Source: Gemmatimonadota bacterium
GTDB taxonomy: Bacteria; Gemmatimonadota; Gemmatimonadetes; Gemmatimonadales; Gemmatimonadaceae
Length of the DNA: 64,000 nucleotides
Assembly (NCBI GenBank): GCA_026387915.1
Contig: JAPLKS010000014.1
Location: 186,001 to 250,000, forward strand
Direction: 5' to 3'
Shown here: one piece after another, positions 16,947 through 40,982 of the stretch
Layout of the letters: every line of letters starts with the position of its first letter
Position numbering within the stretch: position 1 is the stretch's first letter
Translations under genes and position numbers: made by a program
Notes under the pieces: generated by a model
Seen by the model: only the letters and a program-made list of their open reading frames with translations
The model's database searches: none
What the model was told of the DNA's origin: nothing

Positions 16947-16986
16947 AGCGGTTGGTGCACGCGACATGTCGCGCGCACCAACCGCT
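16947..16986. terminator. 40-nt hairpin between convergent genes
   Basis: AGCGGTTGGTGC pairs with GCACCAACCGCT; inside, CGCGACATGTCGCG is itself a perfect palindrome, leaving a single A/C mismatch. It sits between the plus-strand symporter and the minus-strand kinase and could stop both. Confidence 0.7.
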
Positions 16987-16995
16987 TCTCGCTGC

Positions 16996-17922
16996 TTAGG
17001 CGCGGGCCAGCATTGCCAGCGCGTCGCGCACGGCGCCACGCACGGGGACCACGTCATCGGCGCGGAGCTGGGTGCCTGGCACGGCGGACTTGAGTCGCAG
17101 CTCCACCAGTTTGCGGAGGTAGCTGCCGCGGCGCATCAGGCCGCCCGCGAGCGCCACTGGGGTCGCGGCGCGCTCGTCCACAAACAGTTGGCGTGACAGC
17201 GTGCGGATGTGCAGCACGAGTTCCTCAGCGGCGAGTGCGCACAGCGAGTTCGCGCGCAGATCGCCGTTCGCGGCACACTGCATCACCGGAGCCGTGAGCG
17301 TCGCCAAATCGGCTGGCGTCGCTTTCGCAGCCCACGCCACGAGTTCGTCGGGCTGCTCGAACTGTAAATGCGTCAGGATCACGCCGAGGAGCGCGGTACT
17401 CGGCTCGCGCTCATCGGACGCACCGGTGACCACGCTCAGCGCGCGTCGCCCAATCCATGACCCGCTGCCTTCATCGCCGCAAACAGGCCCCCAGCCGCCA
17501 CAGCGGGCCATCTTGCCCCCCGGTGCGCGTCCATAGGCCACGGATCCCGTGCCAGCGATCAGCAGGATGCCAGAGTCGTCGCCAAAGGCGTCGGCAAAGG
17601 CAATCATTGCATCGGGGAGGACCACGAGGTCTTCGGCCAGATTCCGGCGCGTCATTTCCGCCAGAAAGGCGGAATACTCGGCGTCGCGGCCTACGCCGGC
17701 CACACCAATGCAGAGTGCAGCAGGCGTTTCATCAGACTTGCCCGCCTGATCCAGTGCCGCCACGATCAATTCTTCGATGACGTCGGCTGACTGCTCGGCG
17801 CCGCCGGGGCGTACGGCGCTAGCCGAACCCGTGATCGAGGCGAGCTCCACACCGGCATTATCCGCGACAACCACCGTGGTCTTGGTGCCGCCGCCATCCA
17901 CTCCAATTACAAATGAACTCAT
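16996..17922 (-). CDS. BadF/BadG-type ATPase, probable N-acetylhexosamine kinase
   Basis: A 308-residue protein of the sugar kinase/actin fold. The phosphate-1 motif is GVDGGGTKT at the N-terminus; IAGTGSVAYG and CGDEGSGSWIG are the phosphate-2 and adenosine regions. Homologues include eukaryotic NAGK and bacterial MurNAc/GlcNAc kinases. It starts 10 nt after the symporter stop and is the third gene of the minus-strand operon, so phosphorylation of an amino sugar brought in by that symporter is the likely job. GlcNAc versus MurNAc cannot be told from the sequence. Confidence 0.82.
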   Translation of the reverse strand: MSSFVIGVDGGGTKTTVVVADNAGVELASITGSASAVRPGGAEQSADVIEELIVAALDQAGKSDETPAALCIGVAGVGRDAEYSAFLAEMTRRNLAEDLVVLPDAMIAFADAFGDDSGILLIAGTGSVAYGRAPGGKMARCGGWGPVCGDEGSGSWIGRRALSVVTGASDEREPSTALLGVILTHLQFEQPDELVAWAAKATPADLATLTAPVMQCAANGDLRANSLCALAAEELVLHIRTLSRQLFVDERAATPVALAGGLMRRGSYLRKLVELRLKSAVPGTQLRADDVVPVRGAVRDALAMLARA

Positions 17923-17932
17923 AGTCGGAAAA

Positions 17933-19444
17933 CTAGCGGGTGGGAGACGGTGGGGAAGCGTGCGTGAGCGACGAGAGTGAACCCGTGGTCATCGTGATCG
18001 TGAGGCCGATGAGCACATACCAGGGCCACGCCACATTGGCGAAGGGGCCAAGCAGCGACGCAAACGACGGGTATGAGGCCACGAGCGGTTTGGCAAAGAC
18101 GATGCCGGCCATGGTCAGAATGCCCACGGACATCCCTAGGATCACGTCGCGTTGGTTGGCGCGACGATTGGCCATACCGAGGAAGAACGCGCCCAAGAGC
18201 GCACCCTGCGTGAAGGACGCAATGGAGAGCGCGATCACCACCACTGGTGTGCGTCCCTCGGGAAAGAGCAGCGCGCCCACCGTCAGCACCACACCCCAGC
18301 CAAGGGCAAACCACCGACCCATGCGGAAGGTGCGGGCTTCGTCGGCGCCGTGGCCGGTGAGCGGCAGGTAAATGTCGTGCGTCGTCGTGGCGGCCAGCGA
18401 GTTGATGGCGCCAGAGTGGGTGCTCATAGTGGCGGCGAGAATCGACGCCACCAGTAAGCCCACCAGGCCATGCGGCATGCGTTGGAAAATAAACGTCGGG
18501 AAAATCGTATCCGGCGAGTTGAACTGCGCGCCGTTGAAGTACGTCCAGAGCCCAATGCCGACGGTGAGGAACAACGTCATCAGCACGAGCACGGCAATGC
18601 CGCTCCCGATGATCGCGCGTTGGGCGTCCTTAAGTGACCGAGCGGACAGCATCCGTTGCACGATCGTCTGATCCGCTCCGTGCGAGGCCATCGTCAAGAA
18701 CGCACCGCCGATGACGCCAGCCCAAATCGTGTGCGGGCGATCGAGGCCCAAGTAAAAATCGAACACCCGGAGTTTGTCGGCCGCGCGAGCCCCGTCAAGA
18801 ATCGTCGTCCAGCCACCGTCCACCGACTGTCCGAGCAGGACGATTGCCGAGATGCCGCCCGTGGCGTAGACGCCAGCTTGGAGCAACTCCGTCCAGACCA
18901 CCGCGCGCATGCCGCCGCGATATGTGTACACGATCGTGAGAATGCCGAGTAAAAGAATGGCCGCGGGCATCACCCATTGCTTGGGCATGGAGGGGCCGAT
19001 GATCAGCGCAATGGGAATGGCCGACGCAAAGACGCGCACGGAGTCGGCCATCGCACGCGTGGCCATAAACACGATCGAGGTGAATCGGCGCGCGCCGAGC
19101 CCGAAGCGTGTTTCGAGGAGTGCGTATGCGGTGACCAACTCACCTTGGAAGTAGCGGGGCAGCAATACGTACGCCACCACGAACCGGCCGATGATGTAGC
19201 CGAGGCACACCTGCAGAAATCCGAAGTTTCCGACAAACGCGAGTCCGGGGACGGAGATGAAGGTGAGGGCGCTCGTTTCGGCCGCGACAATAGAGAACAT
19301 CACCGCCCACCAGGGCAGGGAGCGGTTCGCGACGAAATAGTCGCGTGAGTTCTGCTGGTTGCGTCCGAGCCAGGTACCGAGCGCGACCGTGCCGCCCAGG
19401 TACACGACAATGACGACGATATCGAGCACTCCGAGTCTACTCAA
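17933..19444 (-). CDS. Sodium:solute symporter family (SSS) transporter
   Basis: A 503-residue integral membrane protein with about 13 helices. The N-terminal YFVANRSLPWWAVMFSIVAAETSALTF region is the SSS signature. The frame begins with TTG overlapping the stop of the upstream fusion gene by 8 nt; a GTG five codons further in (19429) is an equally good start. Context between a NagB-like/PIG-L enzyme and a hexosamine kinase suggests uptake of an amino sugar such as MurNAc or GlcNAc. Similar MurNAc/sialic-acid transporters exist in this family, as far as I recall. Confidence 0.85.
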   Translation of the reverse strand: MSRLGVLDIVVIVVYLGGTVALGTWLGRNQQNSRDYFVANRSLPWWAVMFSIVAAETSALTFISVPGLAFVGNFGFLQVCLGYIIGRFVVAYVLLPRYFQGELVTAYALLETRFGLGARRFTSIVFMATRAMADSVRVFASAIPIALIIGPSMPKQWVMPAAILLLGILTIVYTYRGGMRAVVWTELLQAGVYATGGISAIVLLGQSVDGGWTTILDGARAADKLRVFDFYLGLDRPHTIWAGVIGGAFLTMASHGADQTIVQRMLSARSLKDAQRAIIGSGIAVLVLMTLFLTVGIGLWTYFNGAQFNSPDTIFPTFIFQRMPHGLVGLLVASILAATMSTHSGAINSLAATTTHDIYLPLTGHGADEARTFRMGRWFALGWGVVLTVGALLFPEGRTPVVVIALSIASFTQGALLGAFFLGMANRRANQRDVILGMSVGILTMAGIVFAKPLVASYPSFASLLGPFANVAWPWYVLIGLTITMTTGSLSSLTHASPPSPTR

Positions 19445-21290
19445 CGACGTACGCCTCCATCGCGAAGTACTCGGCCAGTCCTAGGCGGTCGAGCATCGCG
19501 GCTGTGTCCTTGTTGCGCGTTTCGACGCGCTGCCAGAATTCGCGGTCGTCGTGCCCCGGGAACGGAGCGGAATCCTTCTGTGACTGGTGCTTGAAAATCG
19601 CTTGGATCTTCAGGCGCAGTTCCTCTTGCGCCATCGGTACGAGCCAGGTGGCGTCCGTGACGGGCCATTCCTGCCAGGCACCGCGATACAGCCACACTTC
19701 AGGACGCCCCGGTGCCTTGGCCGTGGGCCAGAGCTGCGCACGCGCTTCGTCGATGGCTTCCTTGCACATGCGGTGCGTGCCGTGCGGATCGGACAAGTCG
19801 CCGGCCACAAAAATCAGCTCCGGCTTCTTTTCCTCGAGCAGGGCACGTACGATCGCCACATCAGCCGGGCCGATCGGATCCTTCTTCACTTTGCCCGTTT
19901 GGTAGAACGGCAGATTGAGGAAACGCGCGGACTTGGCGTGCAGCCCCGACGTTTCAATGCCGCTCACCGCTTCCGCTTCGCGAATGATGCGCTTGAGATC
20001 TTGAATATCGGAGATGTCGACGTCGCCCGGTTTTTTCGAGGCAAGGAAGGCGCGCGCGCGCTCGGCGAACCCGCTCACCTTTGCCGCGTCAATGCTCCCG
20101 CTGGCGGCCAACCGTTCGAGGACGTCAATGTAGCGGCGCACGTCGTGGTCGAACACGGCGATGTTGCCGCTCGTCATGTACGCGACGGTGATGTCGTTGT
20201 CGTTGAGTGCGAGCTTGTGCAAGATGCCGCCCATCGAGATGACGTCGTCGTCCGGATGCGGCGAGAACACAATGATGCGCTTGCCGCGGGGCAACTTGGA
20301 CCGGCCACGGATTTTGGCGCCGAGGATGTTGAACACTTCGCCGTTCGCCGCGCCCGGCGATCCGCGTTGTGCAACAAGCGACGAGAGATGGTGCTCGGCG
20401 TAGTCTTGCTGTGTCAGCTTGAGAATGGCGGTGCCCGTGGTGAGCGAGAGCCACACGACCGCGCGCAGGGTGAGCTCCGGCGTCCACGCCACTTCGTCCA
20501 GCACCCACGGCGTGGCGATGCGCGTGAGGTCCGCGGCAGCCGCCCCGTCCACATAGAACGTGGTGTTGGGGTGACGCTGCAAAAATGTGGCGGCGACTTC
20601 CACGCTGATGTCGCCTTCCACTGCGCGGCGCACGATGCGCGACTTGTGTTCGCCGGTGGCGAGAATCGCAATCTCGCGCGCCTCGAGAATGGTCGCGACG
20701 CCCATCGTAATCGCTTCCTTGGGGACAAACTCCTCGCCAAAGAAATCCGCGGCCGCGTCGCGGCGCGTGACGTTATCGAGGTGAATGAGGCGCGTGCGGC
20801 TCCCGGCACCAGACCCCGGTTCGTTAAAACCGATGTGTCCCGTTTTTCCGATGCCGAGGAGCTGAAAATCGATACCACCCAAATCGCGAATGGCCTGCTC
20901 GTACGCGGCACAGGTCCGCTCCACATCGGCCCGCGGCGTCATCCCGCTCGGGATGTGGACGTTCTTGGGATCGATGTCCACCTGGGAAAAGAGATTCTCC
21001 CACATGAAGCGGTGATACGAGTGGATGCTCTCGGGCGGCATCGGCCAGTATTCGTCGAGATTGAACGTCACGACGTTCCGAAAGCTCAGCCCCTGCTCCC
21101 GGTGCATGCGAATGAGTTCGCGATACACGCCGATCGGTGTCGATCCGGTCGCGAGCCCGAGGACGACGGGGCGGTTCGAGCCCTCGCGTTCACGGATGAG
21201 CGTGGCGATCCGTTCCGCCACCACGCGAGCGAGGTCGTTGTGCGCGTCCACCGCGACCGTGGTGATTTTTTCGAGTGCGCTAGAAGACAT
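19437..21290 (-). CDS. Glucosamine-6-phosphate deaminase-like / PIG-L deacetylase fusion
   Basis: A 617-residue two-domain protein. Residues 1 to about 290 match NagB: GLATGSTP, FNLDEYW, and GIGKTGHIGFNEP. At the position of catalytic Asp141 of E. coli NagB stands Thr150, while His152 and Glu157 are kept. Residues about 330-617 are a PIG-L/LmbE zinc deacetylase with SPHPDDD (His345, Asp347-349). Bacteroidota have fusions of this layout. The PIG-L half may remove the acetyl group and so stand in for NagA, with the NagB half acting on the product (inference). It is first in a three-gene operon with symporter and kinase. No Shine-Dalgarno is evident. Confidence 0.85.
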   Translation of the reverse strand: MSSSALEKITTVAVDAHNDLARVVAERIATLIREREGSNRPVVLGLATGSTPIGVYRELIRMHREQGLSFRNVVTFNLDEYWPMPPESIHSYHRFMWENLFSQVDIDPKNVHIPSGMTPRADVERTCAAYEQAIRDLGGIDFQLLGIGKTGHIGFNEPGSGAGSRTRLIHLDNVTRRDAAADFFGEEFVPKEAITMGVATILEAREIAILATGEHKSRIVRRAVEGDISVEVAATFLQRHPNTTFYVDGAAAADLTRIATPWVLDEVAWTPELTLRAVVWLSLTTGTAILKLTQQDYAEHHLSSLVAQRGSPGAANGEVFNILGAKIRGRSKLPRGKRIIVFSPHPDDDVISMGGILHKLALNDNDITVAYMTSGNIAVFDHDVRRYIDVLERLAASGSIDAAKVSGFAERARAFLASKKPGDVDISDIQDLKRIIREAEAVSGIETSGLHAKSARFLNLPFYQTGKVKKDPIGPADVAIVRALLEEKKPELIFVAGDLSDPHGTHRMCKEAIDEARAQLWPTAKAPGRPEVWLYRGAWQEWPVTDATWLVPMAQEELRLKIQAIFKHQSQKDSAPFPGHDDREFWQRVETRNKDTAAMLDRLGLAEYFAMEAYVVE

Positions 21291-21307
21291 ATGGGGGATT
21301 GTGAAAC

Positions 21308-21337
21308 GGCCCGCGATCCCCTTGGGAATCGCGGGCC
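21308..21337 (-). terminator. Hairpin terminator downstream of erpA
   Basis: GGCCCGCGAT pairs with ATCGCGGGCC, with CCC/GGG extending into the loop. On the minus strand it is followed by GTTTC. It lies between erpA and the NagB-like fusion, separating two minus-strand units. Confidence 0.65.
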
Positions 21338-21402
21338 TCGTTCGATGACGTCACCGGGACGAGCGCGGCATCAAGCGCAGCGGCCCGCGGTGGAACGCAG
21401 TC

Positions 21403-21759
21403 TCAGGCGTTGAACGAGCTACCGCAACCGCAACCACCGGTGGCGTTGGGGTTCTTGAACGTGAAGCCTGAGCCTTGCATGGAGGTCACGTAGTCAATCG
21501 TGACGCCGCCCAGGTACTGCATCGAGAACGGATCGACGAAGAGACGGAAGCCGTTGAGCAAGACGATGGCGTCGTCCTCAGCGGGTTTGTCTTCGATGAG
21601 CAGGCTGTACTTGAAGCCGGAGCAACCGCCCGGCTGCACGGCGACGCGCAGGCCACCAACATCCGGCGACACGTTTTCTGCCGCCATGAACTTCTGAACC
21701 TCGACACCCGCCGCATCGGTCATCACGACGGCGACTTCGGGCTGATTAATTGTGCTCAC
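21403..21759 (-). CDS. erpA: A-type iron-sulfur carrier protein (ErpA/IscA family)
   Basis: A 118-residue HesB-family protein that donates Fe-S clusters to apo-enzymes. The three conserved cysteines are present: one in QPGGCSGFKY and two in the C-terminal GGCGCGSSF. The GTG start is set by an AAGGAG Shine-Dalgarno six nt upstream. A TATATT -10-like element (minus strand, about 21810) lies upstream, shared with the divergent gene. No isc/suf genes are adjacent. ErpA, IscA and SufA cannot be separated firmly. Confidence 0.88.
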   Translation of the reverse strand: MSTINQPEVAVVMTDAAGVEVQKFMAAENVSPDVGGLRVAVQPGGCSGFKYSLLIEDKPAEDDAIVLLNGFRLFVDPFSMQYLGGVTIDYVTSMQGSGFTFKNPNATGGCGCGSSFNA

Positions 21760-21820
21760 GGGAATCTCCTTAAGACGGGGGTGCCAGCACGACGCCGCAC
21801 CACGACATAAATATAGGGCA

Positions 21821-22399
21821 ATGGGGAACCCCTCTCAAGGATACCGCACCATCAGGCGCTGGGCGCGGGAGTTGGTACCGGCGCTCGGGCTTGCCGGCCT
21901 CCTCTTCGGAAGCGCCGCGGTGGCCTGGAAGCTGCTCACGCGGCCCGCGCCCAAGGCGGCGCCCATTGTGGTGGACGTCGACCGAAACGCTCGGCCCTAC
22001 CTCTCAGTGGCCGCGGCCGCGGTGGATTTGGAGCTTATTGCCCCTGACGGGCGCCGCGCCGTCACCGCCAGTTCACTTGAGCTTGCCAGCCGGGTGCCCC
22101 TCTCAGATGCTGGGGTGGACTGCGGCGGGTATGGTCGCGAAAAGGAATCGGAATCGGCCTGCACGGCGAGCATCGTCGTCCATGAGCCCATGCACGGCAC
22201 CTGGCGTGTTATCGTGACCTCAACCGACTCAACCCGAGGCGAAACACTGAATATCGGGTTTGGCGGCCAAGGGTTTCGACGCTCTGGTGGCTTTCCCGTT
22301 CGACTCATGGTCGACGCGCACCAGTCGGTGGAGTTCACCATTGGCGTGATGCCGGAAGGCGTCAGCCAAACCTCGCGCGTGAACCCCAAGGCCCGCTAA
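21821..22399 (+). CDS. Membrane-anchored protein of unknown function
   Basis: A 192-residue protein. ATG 21821 is preferred; an earlier in-frame start would overlap erpA on the other strand. A basic N-terminus precedes one transmembrane helix (about 20-38), and the rest appears extracytoplasmic, with a predicted beta-rich domain containing two cysteines (VDCGGY and SACTAS) that could pair. The ATG lies just after TATAGG, so the transcript may have almost no leader. I do not recognise the family. It is convergent with the NagZ fusion across a bidirectional hairpin. Confidence 0.6.
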   Translation: MGNPSQGYRTIRRWARELVPALGLAGLLFGSAAVAWKLLTRPAPKAAPIVVDVDRNARPYLSVAAAAVDLELIAPDGRRAVTASSLELASRVPLSDAGVDCGGYGREKESESACTASIVVHEPMHGTWRVIVTSTDSTRGETLNIGFGGQGFRRSGGFPVRLMVDAHQSVEFTIGVMPEGVSQTSRVNPKAR

Positions 22400-22409
22400 C
22401 TCGCTGGCC

Positions 22410-22450
22410 GACGGGACGAAGTTGCCAGTCGTCGGCAACCGCGTCCCGTC
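22410..22450. terminator. Bidirectional hairpin between convergent genes
   Basis: GACGGGACG/CGTCCCGTC is the outer stem and GTTGCC/GGCAAC the inner stem, with a 2x2 internal loop and a 7-nt apical loop. It lies between the stop codons of two convergent genes. Confidence 0.7.
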
Positions 22451-22462
22451 CCCGGTCCGTGC

Positions 22463-25400
22463 CTACTTCGCTGGCTGCGGCGGGCGGGTAGCCCCAGTGC
22501 CAAGCCGCATCACGAGATCGGCCACCGCCTGCCGTACGCCGCCGATTTTCGTGTTGGCGCGCGTCGGGTTCACGCGGTTGGTGAGCAGCAGCACAAACAA
22601 ATCGTTGGCGGGGTCCACCCAGAGCGAGCCGCCCGTGAACCCCGTGTGGCCAAACGCGGGGCGCTGCATCAGATGGCCAGCGGAGTTGGTGCCATTCGGC
22701 GTTTCCCAGAGCAGGGCACGGGCCGAGAAGGTGGAATCCGCCACTGTCGTGAACCGTCGCACCGTGGCATCACTCGCAATGCGCGCCGCGCCGAGCTGCC
22801 CGCCGTTGAGGTACATCTGTGCATAGCGCGTCATGTCGTGCGCCGTGCTGAACAGTCCGGCGTGCGAGGACACGCCGCCAAGCGCAAAGGCGTTTTCGTC
22901 GTGCACTTCGCCGCGCAGATGGCGCTGACGCCACGGATCAATTTCCGTTGGCGCAATACGTGCCAAGAGCGACGCCGGCGGATTGAATCGCGTGTCGGTC
23001 ATGCCGAGCGGGCCAAAGACATGCTCCGCCGCATAGGCGTCAATGCGCTGGCCCGTGATGCGCCGCAGAATCTCACCCAGCAGAATCGCATTGAGATCTG
23101 AGTAGACCATCCGCACACCAGGCAGGGTGTCGAGCGCGGTGGCATAGACGAGCGCCATCGCCGAATCTGGTGAGTTCGCTTCCTTGTACAGCGGGCGCCA
23201 TGCTGGCAACCCAGAACTGTGCGTGAGGAGATGGCGAATCAGCACGAGTTCTTTGTTGCGCCCTGTCCACTCGGGGAGATACCGCTGCACGGGAGCCGTC
23301 GGATCGATTTTTCCGGATTCCACCAACTGCATCACCGACGGCGCGAGCGCGGTCACCTTGGTGAGCGAGGCCATGTCCCACAGCGTGTTCGCGTCTGGGC
23401 GTGGCGAGTTCTTCCCGTCGAGATGCCCGGCGCCATACTCGGCGAGCACGCGGTCTTTGCGACCCACCACCACGTATGCGCCAGGGAAGGCGCTGTCAGC
23501 CACGGCGCGGTCGAGCAGGGCGCGCAACGAATCGCTGAGCAGTTTCGGTAGCGTGTCCACCGCGATCACCTCGTGTCCGGAATCATTGCCGCTTGCAAAG
23601 GGGCGGGGGAGTCCGTCGCCGCGCGCAAAATATCCCGGAAGTGAAATCGGGGCGCGTCCGCCGATGGGCGCGCGGCCGGTGATGGCGAGCGCGGCGGCCC
23701 GTTCGAGTGCGGGGCCGCGACCGTACGTGACGAGATAACTCCCCACATGTGGGAACTCGCGGATCACATACGGATTGCCATGCGCGGCCACGATGACGGG
23801 GCGCGTCGCGGCCACACCGTCGAGCCAGCGCGCAATGTGTTCGGCGACGGCAAAGTGGCCCTCCCCTTCGATGGTGCGAACGTGCGTGCTGAGGATAATC
23901 CGCTCGCGGGGGCGCAGCAGCGAATCGAGCGCAGCGTGCGTCCAGCGCGGCGAAATGCGCACCGCGCGCGCGCGCGGCAGGCTCTCGCGAATCGTGCTGG
24001 CGAATGTGCGGCCGGCTTCCACGTCGGCTTCGGACGTGTAGGTGAGCACAAGCGTGGGGCTGTCGTCGTGCAGCGGCACGAGGGCGCGTTCGTCACGCAG
24101 AAGCGTGATGGCTTCGCCCGCGATGCGTTCCGCCAGCGCGCGGTGTGGAGCGGCGCCGACAATCTCGCGCAGCGAGTCGAGCGCGACGATCGGGTGCTGC
24201 ACGGCCCCCGTGCGGAGTTTGAGTTCTAGGAGCCGGCGCACGGATGCATCAATGCGCGCGGGTGTAATTTCTCCCGCTTCGACGGCCGCGACGACGGCGT
24301 TGATCGCGCGCTGCGTGTCCGTGGGCTTGAGCAACACGTCGGCACCGGCGAGCACCGCGAGTACCGTGCTCCGCTCGACGGTGTACCCCTTGCCGACGCC
24401 CTCCATGGAGAGTGCGTCGGTCACGGTGAGGCCGCTAAACCCAAGCGAGTCGCGGAGCAGCGCCGTCACGATCGCTGGGGCGAGCGTGGCAGGAACGCTG
24501 TCGTGCTGCACTGCGGGAAGCGCGATGTGCGCCGTCATAATTCCCGTGATACCGGCCGCAATCACCGCGCGGAAGGGCACCAACTCGGTGGTGTTCAGAT
24601 GCGCGCGGTCGCCGCGCACCACGGGCAGGGCGTTATGCGAGTCGGTATCGGTGTCGCCGTGGCCAGGAAAATGTTTGGCCGTGGCGGCAACGCCTTCACC
24701 CTGCACGCCGCGCACGAACGCCGCCGAGAAGCGCGCCACCTGATCAGGGTCTTCGCCAAACGACCGGGTGTTGATCACGGGGTTGGCGGGATTGTTATTC
24801 ACGTCCACCACCGGCGCATACGCCATGTGAATGCCAACCGCGCGCGATTCACGACCAGTAATGATGCCGGCGAGTTCCGCGTTTGATTCTTTGCCCGTGG
24901 CGGCGATCGCCATTTCACTTGGCAGAATCGTCGCGCTCCCGGCGCCGTACGTATTGGGTGCGAAGACGCCTCCCTCGAGCCGTCCAAGTCCGGGCTCGAC
25001 GTCGGACGTCACCAACAGCGGCACGCGGGCGAGTTTCTGCAGGTCGTTCACCTTCGCGGCGACTTCAATCGGCGAGCCGAGCGACATCACAAGTCCACCG
25101 ACGCCGTCCTCTTGCACCCAGCGGCGCACTTCTTCGTACGCGGGGTCGGTGGTGCTGGTGTAGTCGCCCAGCAGCCAGACGGTGACCATTTGCGCCACGC
25201 GTTCGCGCAACGAGAGACTCAACAGCGTTTGGTCGATCCATCGCCGTGCGGCGTCGTTGAGCGGAGCGGTGAGCGTCGGTTCAAAATCCGGCGCGGCGAG
25301 CGCGCGCCGCCGACGTGCGGTGCCGCTCGTGGAGGCGTCGGTTGCTGCGGCAATCGCCGTTGAGGCACCCGCGCTCGCCGGTACGGCGGCGGCCGGCGGA

Positions 25401-25576
25401 GTGGCGACGCCGGATGCCGCCGCGGCGCTGGGCTCCCGCGGGGCGGGTGCCGGTGTGACCTTTGACGGAGCGGGAACCGGAATGCGTCGCACCGGCTGCG
25501 GGCTTCGCGCAGCACACGACGCGACAACGGGGAGCGCGCAGCAGAGAATCGCACGGCGAAACATGGGCATCGTCAC
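22463..25576 (-). CDS. nagZ: GH3 beta-N-acetylglucosaminidase (NagZ-like) fused to a beta-lactamase-type serine hydrolase; lipoprotein
   Basis: A 1037-residue protein. The N-terminus is a lipoprotein signal with lipobox VASC, so it is membrane-anchored outside the cytoplasm, unlike cytoplasmic E. coli NagZ. A Pro/Ala-rich tether (to about 95) leads to a GH3 domain (about 100-430) with KHFPGHGDTDTDSHN and the nucleophile Asp in VTDALSMEG, then the GH3 C-terminal alpha/beta domain. Residues about 660-1037 are a class C beta-lactamase/DD-peptidase fold with SLTK (SxxK), YSD and HTG. It likely removes GlcNAc from wall fragments; the second domain may act on the peptide or ester part. The first codon is GTG; ATG codons at 25570 and 25564 are alternatives. 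Confidence 0.88.
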   Translation of the reverse strand: MTMPMFRRAILCCALPVVASCAARSPQPVRRIPVPAPSKVTPAPAPREPSAAAASGVATPPAAAVPASAGASTAIAAATDASTSGTARRRRALAAPDFEPTLTAPLNDAARRWIDQTLLSLSLRERVAQMVTVWLLGDYTSTTDPAYEEVRRWVQEDGVGGLVMSLGSPIEVAAKVNDLQKLARVPLLVTSDVEPGLGRLEGGVFAPNTYGAGSATILPSEMAIAATGKESNAELAGIITGRESRAVGIHMAYAPVVDVNNNPANPVINTRSFGEDPDQVARFSAAFVRGVQGEGVAATAKHFPGHGDTDTDSHNALPVVRGDRAHLNTTELVPFRAVIAAGITGIMTAHIALPAVQHDSVPATLAPAIVTALLRDSLGFSGLTVTDALSMEGVGKGYTVERSTVLAVLAGADVLLKPTDTQRAINAVVAAVEAGEITPARIDASVRRLLELKLRTGAVQHPIVALDSLREIVGAAPHRALAERIAGEAITLLRDERALVPLHDDSPTLVLTYTSEADVEAGRTFASTIRESLPRARAVRISPRWTHAALDSLLRPRERIILSTHVRTIEGEGHFAVAEHIARWLDGVAATRPVIVAAHGNPYVIREFPHVGSYLVTYGRGPALERAAALAITGRAPIGGRAPISLPGYFARGDGLPRPFASGNDSGHEVIAVDTLPKLLSDSLRALLDRAVADSAFPGAYVVVGRKDRVLAEYGAGHLDGKNSPRPDANTLWDMASLTKVTALAPSVMQLVESGKIDPTAPVQRYLPEWTGRNKELVLIRHLLTHSSGLPAWRPLYKEANSPDSAMALVYATALDTLPGVRMVYSDLNAILLGEILRRITGQRIDAYAAEHVFGPLGMTDTRFNPPASLLARIAPTEIDPWRQRHLRGEVHDENAFALGGVSSHAGLFSTAHDMTRYAQMYLNGGQLGAARIASDATVRRFTTVADSTFSARALLWETPNGTNSAGHLMQRPAFGHTGFTGGSLWVDPANDLFVLLLTNRVNPTRANTKIGGVRQAVADLVMRLGTGATRPPQPAK

Positions 25577-25591
25577 AAAGGATGGCGGGTG

Positions 25592-26878
25592 ATGAATCGA
25601 ACAGTGGCACTGGCGCTAGCCACCTTAATCTGCACACTGGGAGCCGAGGCACAATCGCGCGGCGATACTCGGCGGCCTGAGCGCGTCCGTCCGGGCATCA
25701 CGGTGCTCCTCGACGAACAGATCGGACTGGTGCAGAATCGCCGTGTGGCGCTCCTGACCAACCAGACGGGAATCGACGAGCACGGGACGTCCGACATTGA
25801 CCTCCTCATGCAGGATGTCCGTGCCCGCAAAGCGCGCGTGCAGCTCGTTGCGCTCTTTGCCCCGGAGCACGGCGTGCGCGGGACAGAAGACCACCCCGAC
25901 GTCGACGACGAAAAGGATGCGCGGAGCGGCCTCGTCGTGCACTCCCTGTATAAGATGGGGACGATCGCACCGCCGGACTCCTTGCTTCGCGGCGTGGACG
26001 TGCTCGTGGTGGACCTACAAGACAGCGGGACGAGAACCTGGACGTATATCGGCGTCATGCTCTATGCCGTCCGCGCCGGCGCGCGGCTGCACATTCCCGT
26101 GGTAGTCCTCGACCGTCCAAACCCCATCACGGGGACGCGGCTTGAGGGGCCAATGCTCGACAGTGCCCTCGCCGACGATGCCGATCCGGTCCCCGGACGT
26201 AGAGGGAAGGCGCACGCCATCTACCCCCTGCCGCTGCGACACGGCATGACGATGGGGGAGCTCGCGTTGCTCTTCAATGGCGAACTTTCGCTGCAGGCCG
26301 ACCTTCACGTCGTGCCGGTGCGCGGTTGGAAGCGCGCGCAGTGGTTCGACGAAACGAAGCTCCCCTGGGTTCGCCCCTCGCCCAACCTGCCGTCGCTCAA
26401 GAGCATGTTGATGTTCCCAGGTACGGTGATGTTTGAGGCCACCAACCTTTCCGTAGGCCGAGGCACGGGCGAGCCGTTTCAGCGCGTGGGTGCGCCTTGG
26501 CTTAAGAGCCGCGAGGTCGTGGATTTGTTGCGCGAACGGTTGCTCCCGGGGGTGAAGTTCGAAGCGGAGCGATTCACCCCCAACAATCCCACCGATCACA
26601 AACACTCGGGCGTGACCGTGCCCGGTGTGCGCATCATTGTCACCGATCGCGACGCCGTGAGCCCAACCAGAGTGGGGGCGGCGCTCTTGTGGGCGATTGC
26701 CAAAACGTCTGGCGACTCCCTGACCCTGCGGCAGCCGCGATTTGACGAACTCTTTGGCTCCACAGCAGCGCGCGAGGCAATCCTCCGCGGCGATGACCCG
26801 GATAGCGTGCTCGATCAGCAACTGCCGCTGGTGCTGGCGTGGCGCGATCGGATGCGTCGGTATCAACTCTATCGCTAA
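25592..26878 (+). CDS. namZ: Exo-beta-N-acetylmuramidase NamZ (DUF1343 family)
   Basis: A 428-residue protein with a cleavable signal peptide (about 1-20, ending LGAEAQS). DUF1343 landmarks are LLTNQTGID, LFAPEHGVRG, VVDLQDSGTRTWTYIG and VVLDRPNPITG. The characterised Bacillus member removes MurNAc from the non-reducing end of peptidoglycan fragments. ATG 25592 is chosen over the adjacent in-frame GTG. It is divergent from the NagZ fusion, whose start is only 15 nt away, so the two promoters must lie within each other's coding sequence. Together the two enzymes could degrade glycan chains to monosaccharides. Confidence 0.9.
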   Translation: MNRTVALALATLICTLGAEAQSRGDTRRPERVRPGITVLLDEQIGLVQNRRVALLTNQTGIDEHGTSDIDLLMQDVRARKARVQLVALFAPEHGVRGTEDHPDVDDEKDARSGLVVHSLYKMGTIAPPDSLLRGVDVLVVDLQDSGTRTWTYIGVMLYAVRAGARLHIPVVVLDRPNPITGTRLEGPMLDSALADDADPVPGRRGKAHAIYPLPLRHGMTMGELALLFNGELSLQADLHVVPVRGWKRAQWFDETKLPWVRPSPNLPSLKSMLMFPGTVMFEATNLSVGRGTGEPFQRVGAPWLKSREVVDLLRERLLPGVKFEAERFTPNNPTDHKHSGVTVPGVRIIVTDRDAVSPTRVGAALLWAIAKTSGDSLTLRQPRFDELFGSTAAREAILRGDDPDSVLDQQLPLVLAWRDRMRRYQLYR

Positions 26879-39022: not shown

Positions 39023-39106
39023 TGCCGAAGGGGGGACTCGAACCCCCACGGGCTTGCACCCACTGGCTCCTGAAGCCAGCGCGTCTACCAGTTCCACCAC
39101 TTCGGC
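39023..39106 (-). tRNA. tRNA-Leu (CAG)
   Basis: The acceptor arms GCCGAAG/CTTCGGC pair fully. The anticodon arm is CTGGC-TTCAGGA-GCCAG with anticodon CAG, a long variable arm is present (class II tRNA), and the T arm is GGGGG-TTCGAGT-CCCCC. The 3' CCA is not encoded. It decodes CUG. Confidence 0.96.
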
Positions 39107-39207: not shown

Positions 39208-39711
39208 GTGCCCGACATTGTGTCCAAACCAGCCGCTCCCCAATCCAAGGACGATCCCAAGGCCGTAGAGCCGATCGCGCGCAACAAGCGCGCTCGGTTC
39301 GAATACGAGATCTTGGATACCTGGGAAGCGGGCATCGTTCTGACCGGCACCGAGGTGAAATCGCTGCGGGCTGGCAAGGCCAACATTACCGACGCGTACG
39401 GCATCGTGAAGGACGGCGAGCTCTGGCTGCTCAATGCCAACATCGCCCAGTACGAAATGGGGAATCGTTTCAATCACGAAGCGACCCGCACCCGGAAGTT
39501 GCTTCTCCACTCCCGAGAAATCAGTCGGCTCATTGGAGCGGTGGAGCGTCAGGGGCTCACCCTCGTCGCGCTCGACCTCTACTTCAAGGGCGGACGTGCC
39601 AAAGTCAAAATTGCCCTCGCCCGAGGCAAGAAGCTTCACGATAAACGCGCCGACCTCCGCGAAAAGGACGACAAGCGCGACATGGCGCGCGCGATGAAGG
39701 TGCGCGGATGA
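39208..39711 (+). CDS. smpB: SsrA-binding protein
   Basis: A 167-residue protein. The SmpB core is clear: [35 protein letters not shown]-like [12 protein letters not shown], and the C-terminal helical tail [14 protein letters not shown]...MKVRG. It brings tmRNA to stalled ribosomes. GTG 39208 is chosen as the start; a TTG five codons upstream is possible. tmRNA itself is not seen in this window. The stop overlaps the amidase ATG (ATGA). Confidence 0.95.
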
Positions 39712-40982
39712 CCGTCGGCCTCGGATTCCTCCTCTCGCTCGGCGTGCTCGCACAGTCCGATTCCATTGCCGTGCGTTCAGCCACGCGCGATACGGCCGTC
39801 GCGGCAGTCGCGACGGCATCGGGTCCGGCGCTCCGCGCGGCGCTCGCACTTCCGGTTGTTGGTGTGCGCGTCACGGCTGACGGGCAAGGGCGCTGGAAAC
39901 TCTCGCACGGAACCAGTGTCGTGACCCTGGTGGACGGGGTTCCGTTCGCGTCCGATGGGACATCCAACTTTCCGCTGGCTGCGCCTCCGGTGATGCGCAA
40001 CGGAGAACTGTTGCTCCCGCTCTCGACACTCACTGCGCTCGTGCCTAAGCTTGGTGCCGACGTGCATTGGAGCGCCGAGCGTCGTGAGCTTCGCTCGGGC
40101 GCCGTGCGCGACGTGCGCGACGTGCGCGACGTGCGCGCCGTTGCGGCCGCCGCGCCGCCACTCGCACCAGCGACGCTCCCCGCGCCTGAAAAAGTTGTTC
40201 CGCCGGTCACCAATGCCGTCACCCCGCGAAAGACGCCGCGTGCTGCTGCGCAGCACCGGGTGGTGGTGGACGCCGGCCACGGCGGCCCGGACAACGGCAT
40301 GAAGGGTCCACTCGGCGGACGCATCACCTTGTACGAAAAAGACATCACGCTCGCGGTCTCAAAAAAACTGGCGGGGGAACTCGAGGCACGTGGCATCGAG
40401 GTCATCATGACCCGCTCAACCGATACGCTGATCGCGCTGTCCGATCGCGGACGCATCGCGAATCAACGGCATGGTGACCTGTTTATCTCCGTGCACGTGA
40501 ACGCCGCGAATCCCGGTTGGAAGGACCCCTCGGGAGCACGAGGTTTTGAGACGTACTTCCTCTCGGATGCAAAAACCGAGGATGAACGCCGCGTGGCGCA
40601 AATCGAAAATTCATCGGAACGCTTTGATTCCGACGGCGAGACGGGGAAGGCGGATCCGCTCGGATTCCTCATTGCCGACATGAAGCAGAATGAATACTTG
40701 CGCGAGTCCAGCGATCTCGCCTCGCTCATTCAGGCCCGCTTGCGGAAGTCGCACCCCGGGCCGAGTCGTGGCGTCAAGCAGGCGGGGTTCCGCGTGTTGG
40801 TCACCTCGTTTATGCCGTCGGTGCTCGTGGAAATCGGATTTGGTTCCAACCCCACGGAGGCGGCCTTTATCTCGAGCGCCGAGGGGCAACGCGAACTCGC
40901 GGCCGCCGTTGCTGATGCGGCGGTGGAGTATCTCGCGCATTACGAGCGTCGCGCCGGTGCCTCGCCCGGAGGACGTAAGTGA
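39708..40982 (+). CDS. N-acetylmuramoyl-L-alanine amidase (Amidase_3)
   Basis: A 424-residue secreted protein with a short signal peptide (about 1-16, ending VLAQS). The N-terminal half carries a copper-amine-oxidase-like substrate domain (about 50-125), then a Pro/Ala-rich linker, then the zinc amidase domain (about 184-415): [25 protein letters not shown], and [12 protein letters not shown] hold the metal ligands, and [11 protein letters not shown] the catalytic Glu. It cuts the MurNAc-L-Ala bond of peptidoglycan. Three tandem 9-bp repeats (40104-40130) encode repeated VRD. Confidence 0.9.
40104..40130. repeat. Three tandem GTGCGCGAC units inside the amidase gene
   Basis: Three perfect 9-bp units encode VRD-VRD-VRD, followed by a degenerate fourth, at the start of the linker between the two domains. 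Unit gain or loss would keep the frame. Confidence 0.9.

Follow-up and report, generated by a model that had tools for sequence, protein, structure and literature searches.

In Bacillus subtilis, the gene cluster murQRP-amiE-nagZ-ybbC (namZ) encodes an exported NagZ that works with an amidase and a protein of the NamZ family to free N-acetylmuramic acid (MurNAc) outside the cell, with MurQ acting inside (PMC5061867). In Tannerella forsythia murTKQ, a transporter of the sodium symporter superfamily (MurT) stands beside a kinase of PF01869 (MurK), followed by MurQ (PMC5790795, PMC10465942). Escherichia coli K-12 carries yfeW as the third gene after murQ and murP, which ties a YfeW/PBP4B-type serine hydrolase to MurNAc catabolism, and RmNag3 of Rhodothermus marinus is an exported GH3 beta-N-acetylglucosaminidase with a C-terminal 'beta-lactamase' domain (PMC6987092). 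Here we describe a five-gene locus (positions 16996-26878) of a Gemmatimonadota genome (GCA_026387915.1), located in a window, meaning the whole stretch analysed, of 64,000 nucleotides of contig JAPLKS010000014.1. The locus is probably a conserved Gemmatimonadota variant of peptidoglycan sugar salvage outside the cell, and its most interesting part is a NagB/PIG-L fusion protein that probably replaces NagA.

As in B. subtilis, NagZ and NamZ are exported, and the S12 domain may take the part of the amidase, but an SSS symporter and a BadF-type kinase are found in place of MurP of the phosphotransferase system (PTS), NagZ and a serine hydrolase are fused, murQ is located elsewhere, and the fusion appears to stand in for NagA. 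The analogy to Tannerella MurT and MurK, drawn in a preliminary description of this DNA, holds at the family level, with an SSS transporter and a PF01869 kinase encoded in one operon. Here, however, murQ lies outside the operon and the NagB/PIG-L fusion inside it, and the kinase resembles human NAGK and the structure 8zo3 and lacks the S-P-L loop. With E. coli the locus has the YfeW-type hydrolase in common, whereas E. coli relies on PTS transport, separate NagA and NagB, and a YfeW that is not fused to NagZ. RmNag3 shows the same architecture as our NagZ protein but is reported to adjoin unrelated intracellular genes (PMC6987092); our protein has NamZ and the operon next to it, and among relatives the S12 serine hydrolase is often a separate gene. 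All five genes were recovered by Pfam and NCBIfam scores at the places and in the families originally reported.

The NagB/PIG-L fusion and the distribution of NagA

The fusion gene (19437-21290, minus strand) matches NF002557 with 888 bits (cut-off 384). Its product consists of a glucosamine-6-phosphate (GlcN-6-P) deaminase domain (residues 18-256; TIGR00502, 258 bits, above the cut-off of 237) and a PIG-L de-N-acetylase domain (residues ~330-617; PF02585, 59 bits, over cut-off). In the NagB half, D79, H152 and E157 do not vary among the 81 copies; the same holds for the HPDD and HGTH (HxxH) metal motifs of the PIG-L half (H345, D347, D348, H506), and the reading of that half as a decayed appendage was therefore rejected. 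T150 stands where the E. coli enzyme has D141. When modelled with AlphaFold, the complete fusion (mean predicted local distance difference test, pLDDT, 80) retrieved NagB structures first, followed by the related 6-phosphogluconolactonases; its PIG-L half then matched diacetylchitobiose deacetylases of Pyrococcus. The latter were also the top matches for a model of the PIG-L half alone (pLDDT 82; E ~5e-7 to 1e-6, template modelling score ~0.5, 17-18% identity) and, in a comparison by sequence profile, the nearest solved structures (E 7e-8 for a stretch of ~70 residues surrounding the metal motif). These archaeal deacetylases (PDB 4xm2, 8bgo) share the PIG-L fold, the metal-site motif and amino-sugar de-N-acetylation, the last as proposed here, but they are stand-alone proteins named for an unphosphorylated sugar and only ~18% identical to the PIG-L half.

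According to the preliminary description, murQ and nagA were not seen and the route might be variant. For nagA, the absence held up throughout the genome and for almost the entire phylum, while the idea of the fusion as its replacement is added here. With all 58 candidates of the genome itself scored, TIGR00221 gave only fragmentary NagA matches, the strongest at 35 bits, and none of the five amidohydrolases scanned matched a NagA model. We further surveyed 150 Gemmatimonadota genomes with a completeness of at least 90%, for which the NagA searches scored the top 11-12 candidates of each genome. The fusion exceeded its cut-off in 97 genomes, all of which encode murQ, and TIGR00221 detected NagA over its cut-off in none of the 150. 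Because the TIGR00221 and NF008371 runs, with the limits set, failed to pick up the control from B. subtilis, a broader NagA profile was built from 11 proteins including Bacillota ones. The outcome was the same, except that NagA was now found in four genomes, all of lineage f9 and none among the 97 with the fusion, and we therefore rejected the explanation that NagA had merely been missed by the model. The four f9 genomes encode NagB as a separate protein (280-287 bits, ~260 amino acids; its identity confirmed in one of them) and lack both the fusion and murQ. Since lineages are not independent, we treat the complementarity of NagA and fusion (Fisher p = 0.014, 150 genomes) as consistent with a replacement, not as proof. 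One f9 genome (G007) carries two tandem NagA-type genes (L105, 2941-5307) whose best NCBIfam match is NagA, below the curated cut-off.

The MurNAc branch shows no deviation at the MurQ step, because murQ is present on another contig (TIGR00274, 356 bits, cut-off 302), where it overlaps anmK, the gene for anhydro-MurNAc kinase (425 bits, cut-off 387). With both genes present, MurNAc-6-phosphate (MurNAc-6-P) from imported MurNAc or anhydro-MurNAc can become N-acetylglucosamine-6-phosphate (GlcNAc-6-P). AmpG yielded nothing over its cut-off in the genome (best 27.7 of 350 bits), so that a complete classical recycling set elsewhere is only partly there.

With nagA absent and PIG-L and NagB halves with intact active-site motifs joined in one protein, the simplest reading is that this protein performs both the NagA and the NagB step, and GlcNAc-6-P deacetylase is the likeliest activity of the PIG-L half. 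Fusions of the same two-domain architecture are found in Bacteroidota, where these NF002557 'glucosamine-6-phosphate deaminase-like' proteins are 44-51% identical over their full length and annotated, where at all, only as glucosamine-6-phosphate deaminase. Their clusters in Hymenobacter and Fibrella contain an MFS transporter and GH18/GH20 genes, and in Hymenobacter also ROK-family genes, in place of the NamZ, SSS and BadF kinase neighbours seen here; nagA annotations are absent from these stretches in the PLSDB gene tables, which are themselves incomplete. No NagB/PIG-L bifunctional enzyme was described in the literature searched, which covered few subscription journals. On balance, we lean towards the view that the NF002557 proteins of Gemmatimonadota and Bacteroidota are bifunctional GlcNAc-6-P deacetylase/GlcN-6-P deaminases, in which PIG-L would be a second, evolutionarily unrelated solution to the NagA step, wired in our locus to extracellular peptidoglycan salvage. 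This would offer a possible answer to how amino sugars from cell walls are used in a mostly NagA-less phylum and suggests that a second enzyme is hidden behind many 'nagB' annotations.

Exported hydrolases, operon and conserved neighbourhood

NamZ, an exo-beta-N-acetylmuramidase (25589-26878, plus strand, with a likely ATG start at 25592), matches PF07075 (219.5 bits) and PF20732 (135 bits), both over cut-off, and its translation reveals a cleavable signal peptide with the site AEA-Q. Divergent from it, with 12 bases between the listed open reading frames (ORFs), lies the gene of a lipoprotein (22463-25576, minus strand; lipobox VVAS-C, read from the sequence) that unites a GH3 NagZ domain (~24224-25210; PF00933, 266 bits) with an S12 serine hydrolase domain of the YfeW/PBP4B branch (~22550-23527; PF00144, 208 bits). 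The NagZ part contains the Asp-His dyad motif KHFPGHGDTDTDSH and reaches 152 bits against the NCBIfam beta-N-acetylhexosaminidase model, below its 207-bit cut-off.

The S12 part carries SLTK, YSD and HTG motifs, and its best NCBIfam match is PBP4B (164 bits), far ahead of AmpH (77 bits) and class C beta-lactamase (42 bits). Aligned over 358 columns, it also shares 32% identity with E. coli YfeW (E 5e-48). The lipidated NagZ fused to an S12 domain was thus described correctly as a fusion, but its second half, there called a beta-lactamase, is nearer to YfeW than to class C beta-lactamases, and a role as a resistance beta-lactamase was rejected. Given the place of yfeW beside murQ and murP, a MurNAc-peptide hydrolase is likelier, and the release of MurNAc from peptide is the likeliest function judged from the sequence comparisons. 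AmiE presumably belongs to the same fold family. On this reading, what was called a 'beta-lactamase' domain is probably a hydrolase of cell-wall salvage, a point relevant to the annotation of resistance genes. The genome encodes two more NamZ paralogues away from the salvage operon (C7:249961-250557 and C22:236535-237149), one with DUF6259 and aldolase/aldehyde dehydrogenase genes as neighbours and the other with cytochrome oxidase and P450 genes.

The fusion gene overlaps the SSS sodium symporter gene (17933-19444, minus strand; TIGR00813, 203.6 bits, above cut-off) by 8 bases, and a gap of 10 bases separates the latter from the kinase gene (16996-17922, minus strand; PF01869, 137 bits). A terminator-like hairpin with an 18-bp stem (16947-16986, minus strand) directly 3' of the kinase probably marks the end of the operon. 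We propose the symporter as an importer of MurNAc and/or N-acetylglucosamine (GlcNAc); its nearest solved structure is the sodium:solute symporter 5nv9 (148 bits), a sialic-acid transporter. The BadF/NAGK-type kinase is a candidate GlcNAc, and possibly also MurNAc, 6-kinase. Its nearest solved structure is the MurNAc/GlcNAc kinase 8zo3 (137 bits), followed by a probable GlcNAc kinase. The genome's four remaining BadF matches are clustered at C18:159915-175438, away from the salvage locus.

Among the 80 relatives of the fusion that were retrieved, 77 are named as Gemmatimonadota and one bears the title Kuenenia; the closest identity noted among them is 98%, for one relative. Synteny was counted in the 39 loci whose flanks reach 6.5 kb or more upstream and 3.2 kb or more downstream: fusion, SSS symporter and kinase follow in this order in 26, NagZ/S12 lies upstream in 25, a divergent NamZ is present in 21, and all occur together in 19. 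This synteny is not due to chance. At 31 of 46 loci, the symporter and kinase genes share a 4-base overlap. The neighbours of lone fusion genes include no common partner that could serve as a clue to function. The serine hydrolase is the more constant partner, as all 32 loci with a visible upstream NagZ/S12 match have the S12 part and 12 the GH3 NagZ part (a single continuous match over both in 9). Together with the signal peptides and the NamZ, NagZ and YfeW-like parts, the conserved synteny supports well the extracytoplasmic salvage of peptidoglycan sugars that had been suggested for this locus.

Proposed pathway and alternatives

From these genes we infer the substrates, the way the flow runs and the PIG-L half's role as a deacetylase as follows. 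Outside the cytoplasm, NagZ would remove GlcNAc, the YfeW-like S12 domain would trim the peptide part in an AmiE-like role, and NamZ would release MurNAc. Free MurNAc and/or GlcNAc could then be imported by the SSS symporter and converted to the 6-phosphate by the BadF-type kinase. MurQ, encoded elsewhere beside AnmK, would turn MurNAc-6-P into GlcNAc-6-P, which the PIG-L half of the fusion would deacetylate in place of the absent NagA, and the NagB half would deaminate the product to fructose-6-phosphate. We hold this full scheme with fair confidence.

It is possible, though doubtful, that the symporter, kinase and fusion serve GlcNAc only, from chitin or from the cell's own wall, and that MurNAc is handled separately by AnmK and MurQ. 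The occurrence of the fusion without the other parts and the chitin/GlcNAc-type clusters of its Bacteroidota relatives would fit such a use, as would the sole NCBIfam match of the kinase, N-acetylglucosamine kinase, though below cut-off. In addition, the kinase shares with human NAGK the sugar-site motif GGW, which is nearly invariant in 46 kinases and also present in 8zo3. On the other hand, the conserved NamZ and YfeW-like neighbours indicate peptidoglycan rather than chitin, and the solved structure that best matches the kinase bears the name MurNAc/GlcNAc kinase. Directly ahead of the catalytic Asp, the kinases mostly have Ala, Pro or Thr, as opposed to the Asn that the authors of the MurK study tied to other sugar kinases. 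Neither this residue nor the loop at the sugar site settles the choice between MurNAc and GlcNAc; a GlcNAc or dual kinase would fit. We consider it unlikely that the PIG-L half acts elsewhere, on free GlcNAc before phosphorylation, on a MurNAc derivative or on a thiol-pathway intermediate, with GlcNAc-6-P being reused directly for UDP-GlcNAc. Its archaeal relatives take their name from diacetylchitobiose, an unphosphorylated sugar, and the Gemmatimonadota genomes with murQ but neither NagA nor fusion (see below) suggest that a NagA-free route may exist; yet its fusion to a GlcN-6-P deaminase, with neither active site varying, points to consecutive steps, an amino-sugar kinase is encoded in the same operon, and the two PIG-L proteins found in the genome besides the fusion could serve other substrates. 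A non-catalytic or regulatory PIG-L half, with an undetected amidohydrolase as the deacetylase, is very improbable: the genome has 38 amidohydrolase-type matches, but the HPDD and HGTH motifs are invariant, and neither the 58 scored candidates nor the five scanned amidohydrolases gave a full-length NagA-like or NagA-model match, respectively.

Several observations weigh against the proposed salvage scheme or its NagA-replacing step. The kinase lacks the MurNAc-specificity loop S133-P134-L135 of Tannerella MurK and has G142-G143-W144 instead, the equivalence being derived via human NAGK numbering. In 12 of the 39 flanked loci, the fusion occurs without symporter and kinase. The complementarity of NagA and fusion amounts to one lineage split (f9 versus the rest) and thus to few independent events. 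Moreover, 49 of the 150 genomes have neither NagA nor fusion, and since 44 of these encode murQ, the absence of NagA alone does not demand the fusion. In Flavobacterium johnsoniae, a NagA as well as a NagB, which may or may not be a fusion, is assigned to a chitin locus, and deletion of that nagB, one of four nagB-like genes in the genome, had no effect (PMC5127042). Finally, in our genome NagZ is parted from the operon by an IscA/ErpA-type gene for iron-sulfur biogenesis (21403-21759, minus strand; PF01521, 70.8 bits), probably unrelated to the salvage locus, and by an ORF on the opposite strand (21752-22399, plus strand). NamZ and NagZ were rightly reported as a divergent pair next to the operon, but NagZ does not belong to the fusion-symporter-kinase transcription unit here.

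Other observations in and around the window

The opposite-strand ORF encodes 215 amino acids with a hydrophobic segment and lies outside the proposed pathway. It has no Pfam or NCBIfam match, and its relatives occur only in the loci of the two nearest relatives (L021 and L022). An Rfam scan of the whole window returned one tRNA and nothing else. A tRNA gene (39023-39106, minus strand) is located just upstream of a gene for an Amidase_3 N-acetylmuramoyl-L-alanine amidase (39708-40982, plus strand) that is unlinked to the salvage locus. Among the loci with the fusion, one contig titled Candidatus Kuenenia stuttgartiensis (L062, CALQGY020000081.1) displays the Gemmatimonadota synteny of fusion, SSS, kinase, APC and HppA and is probably mislabelled or mis-binned.

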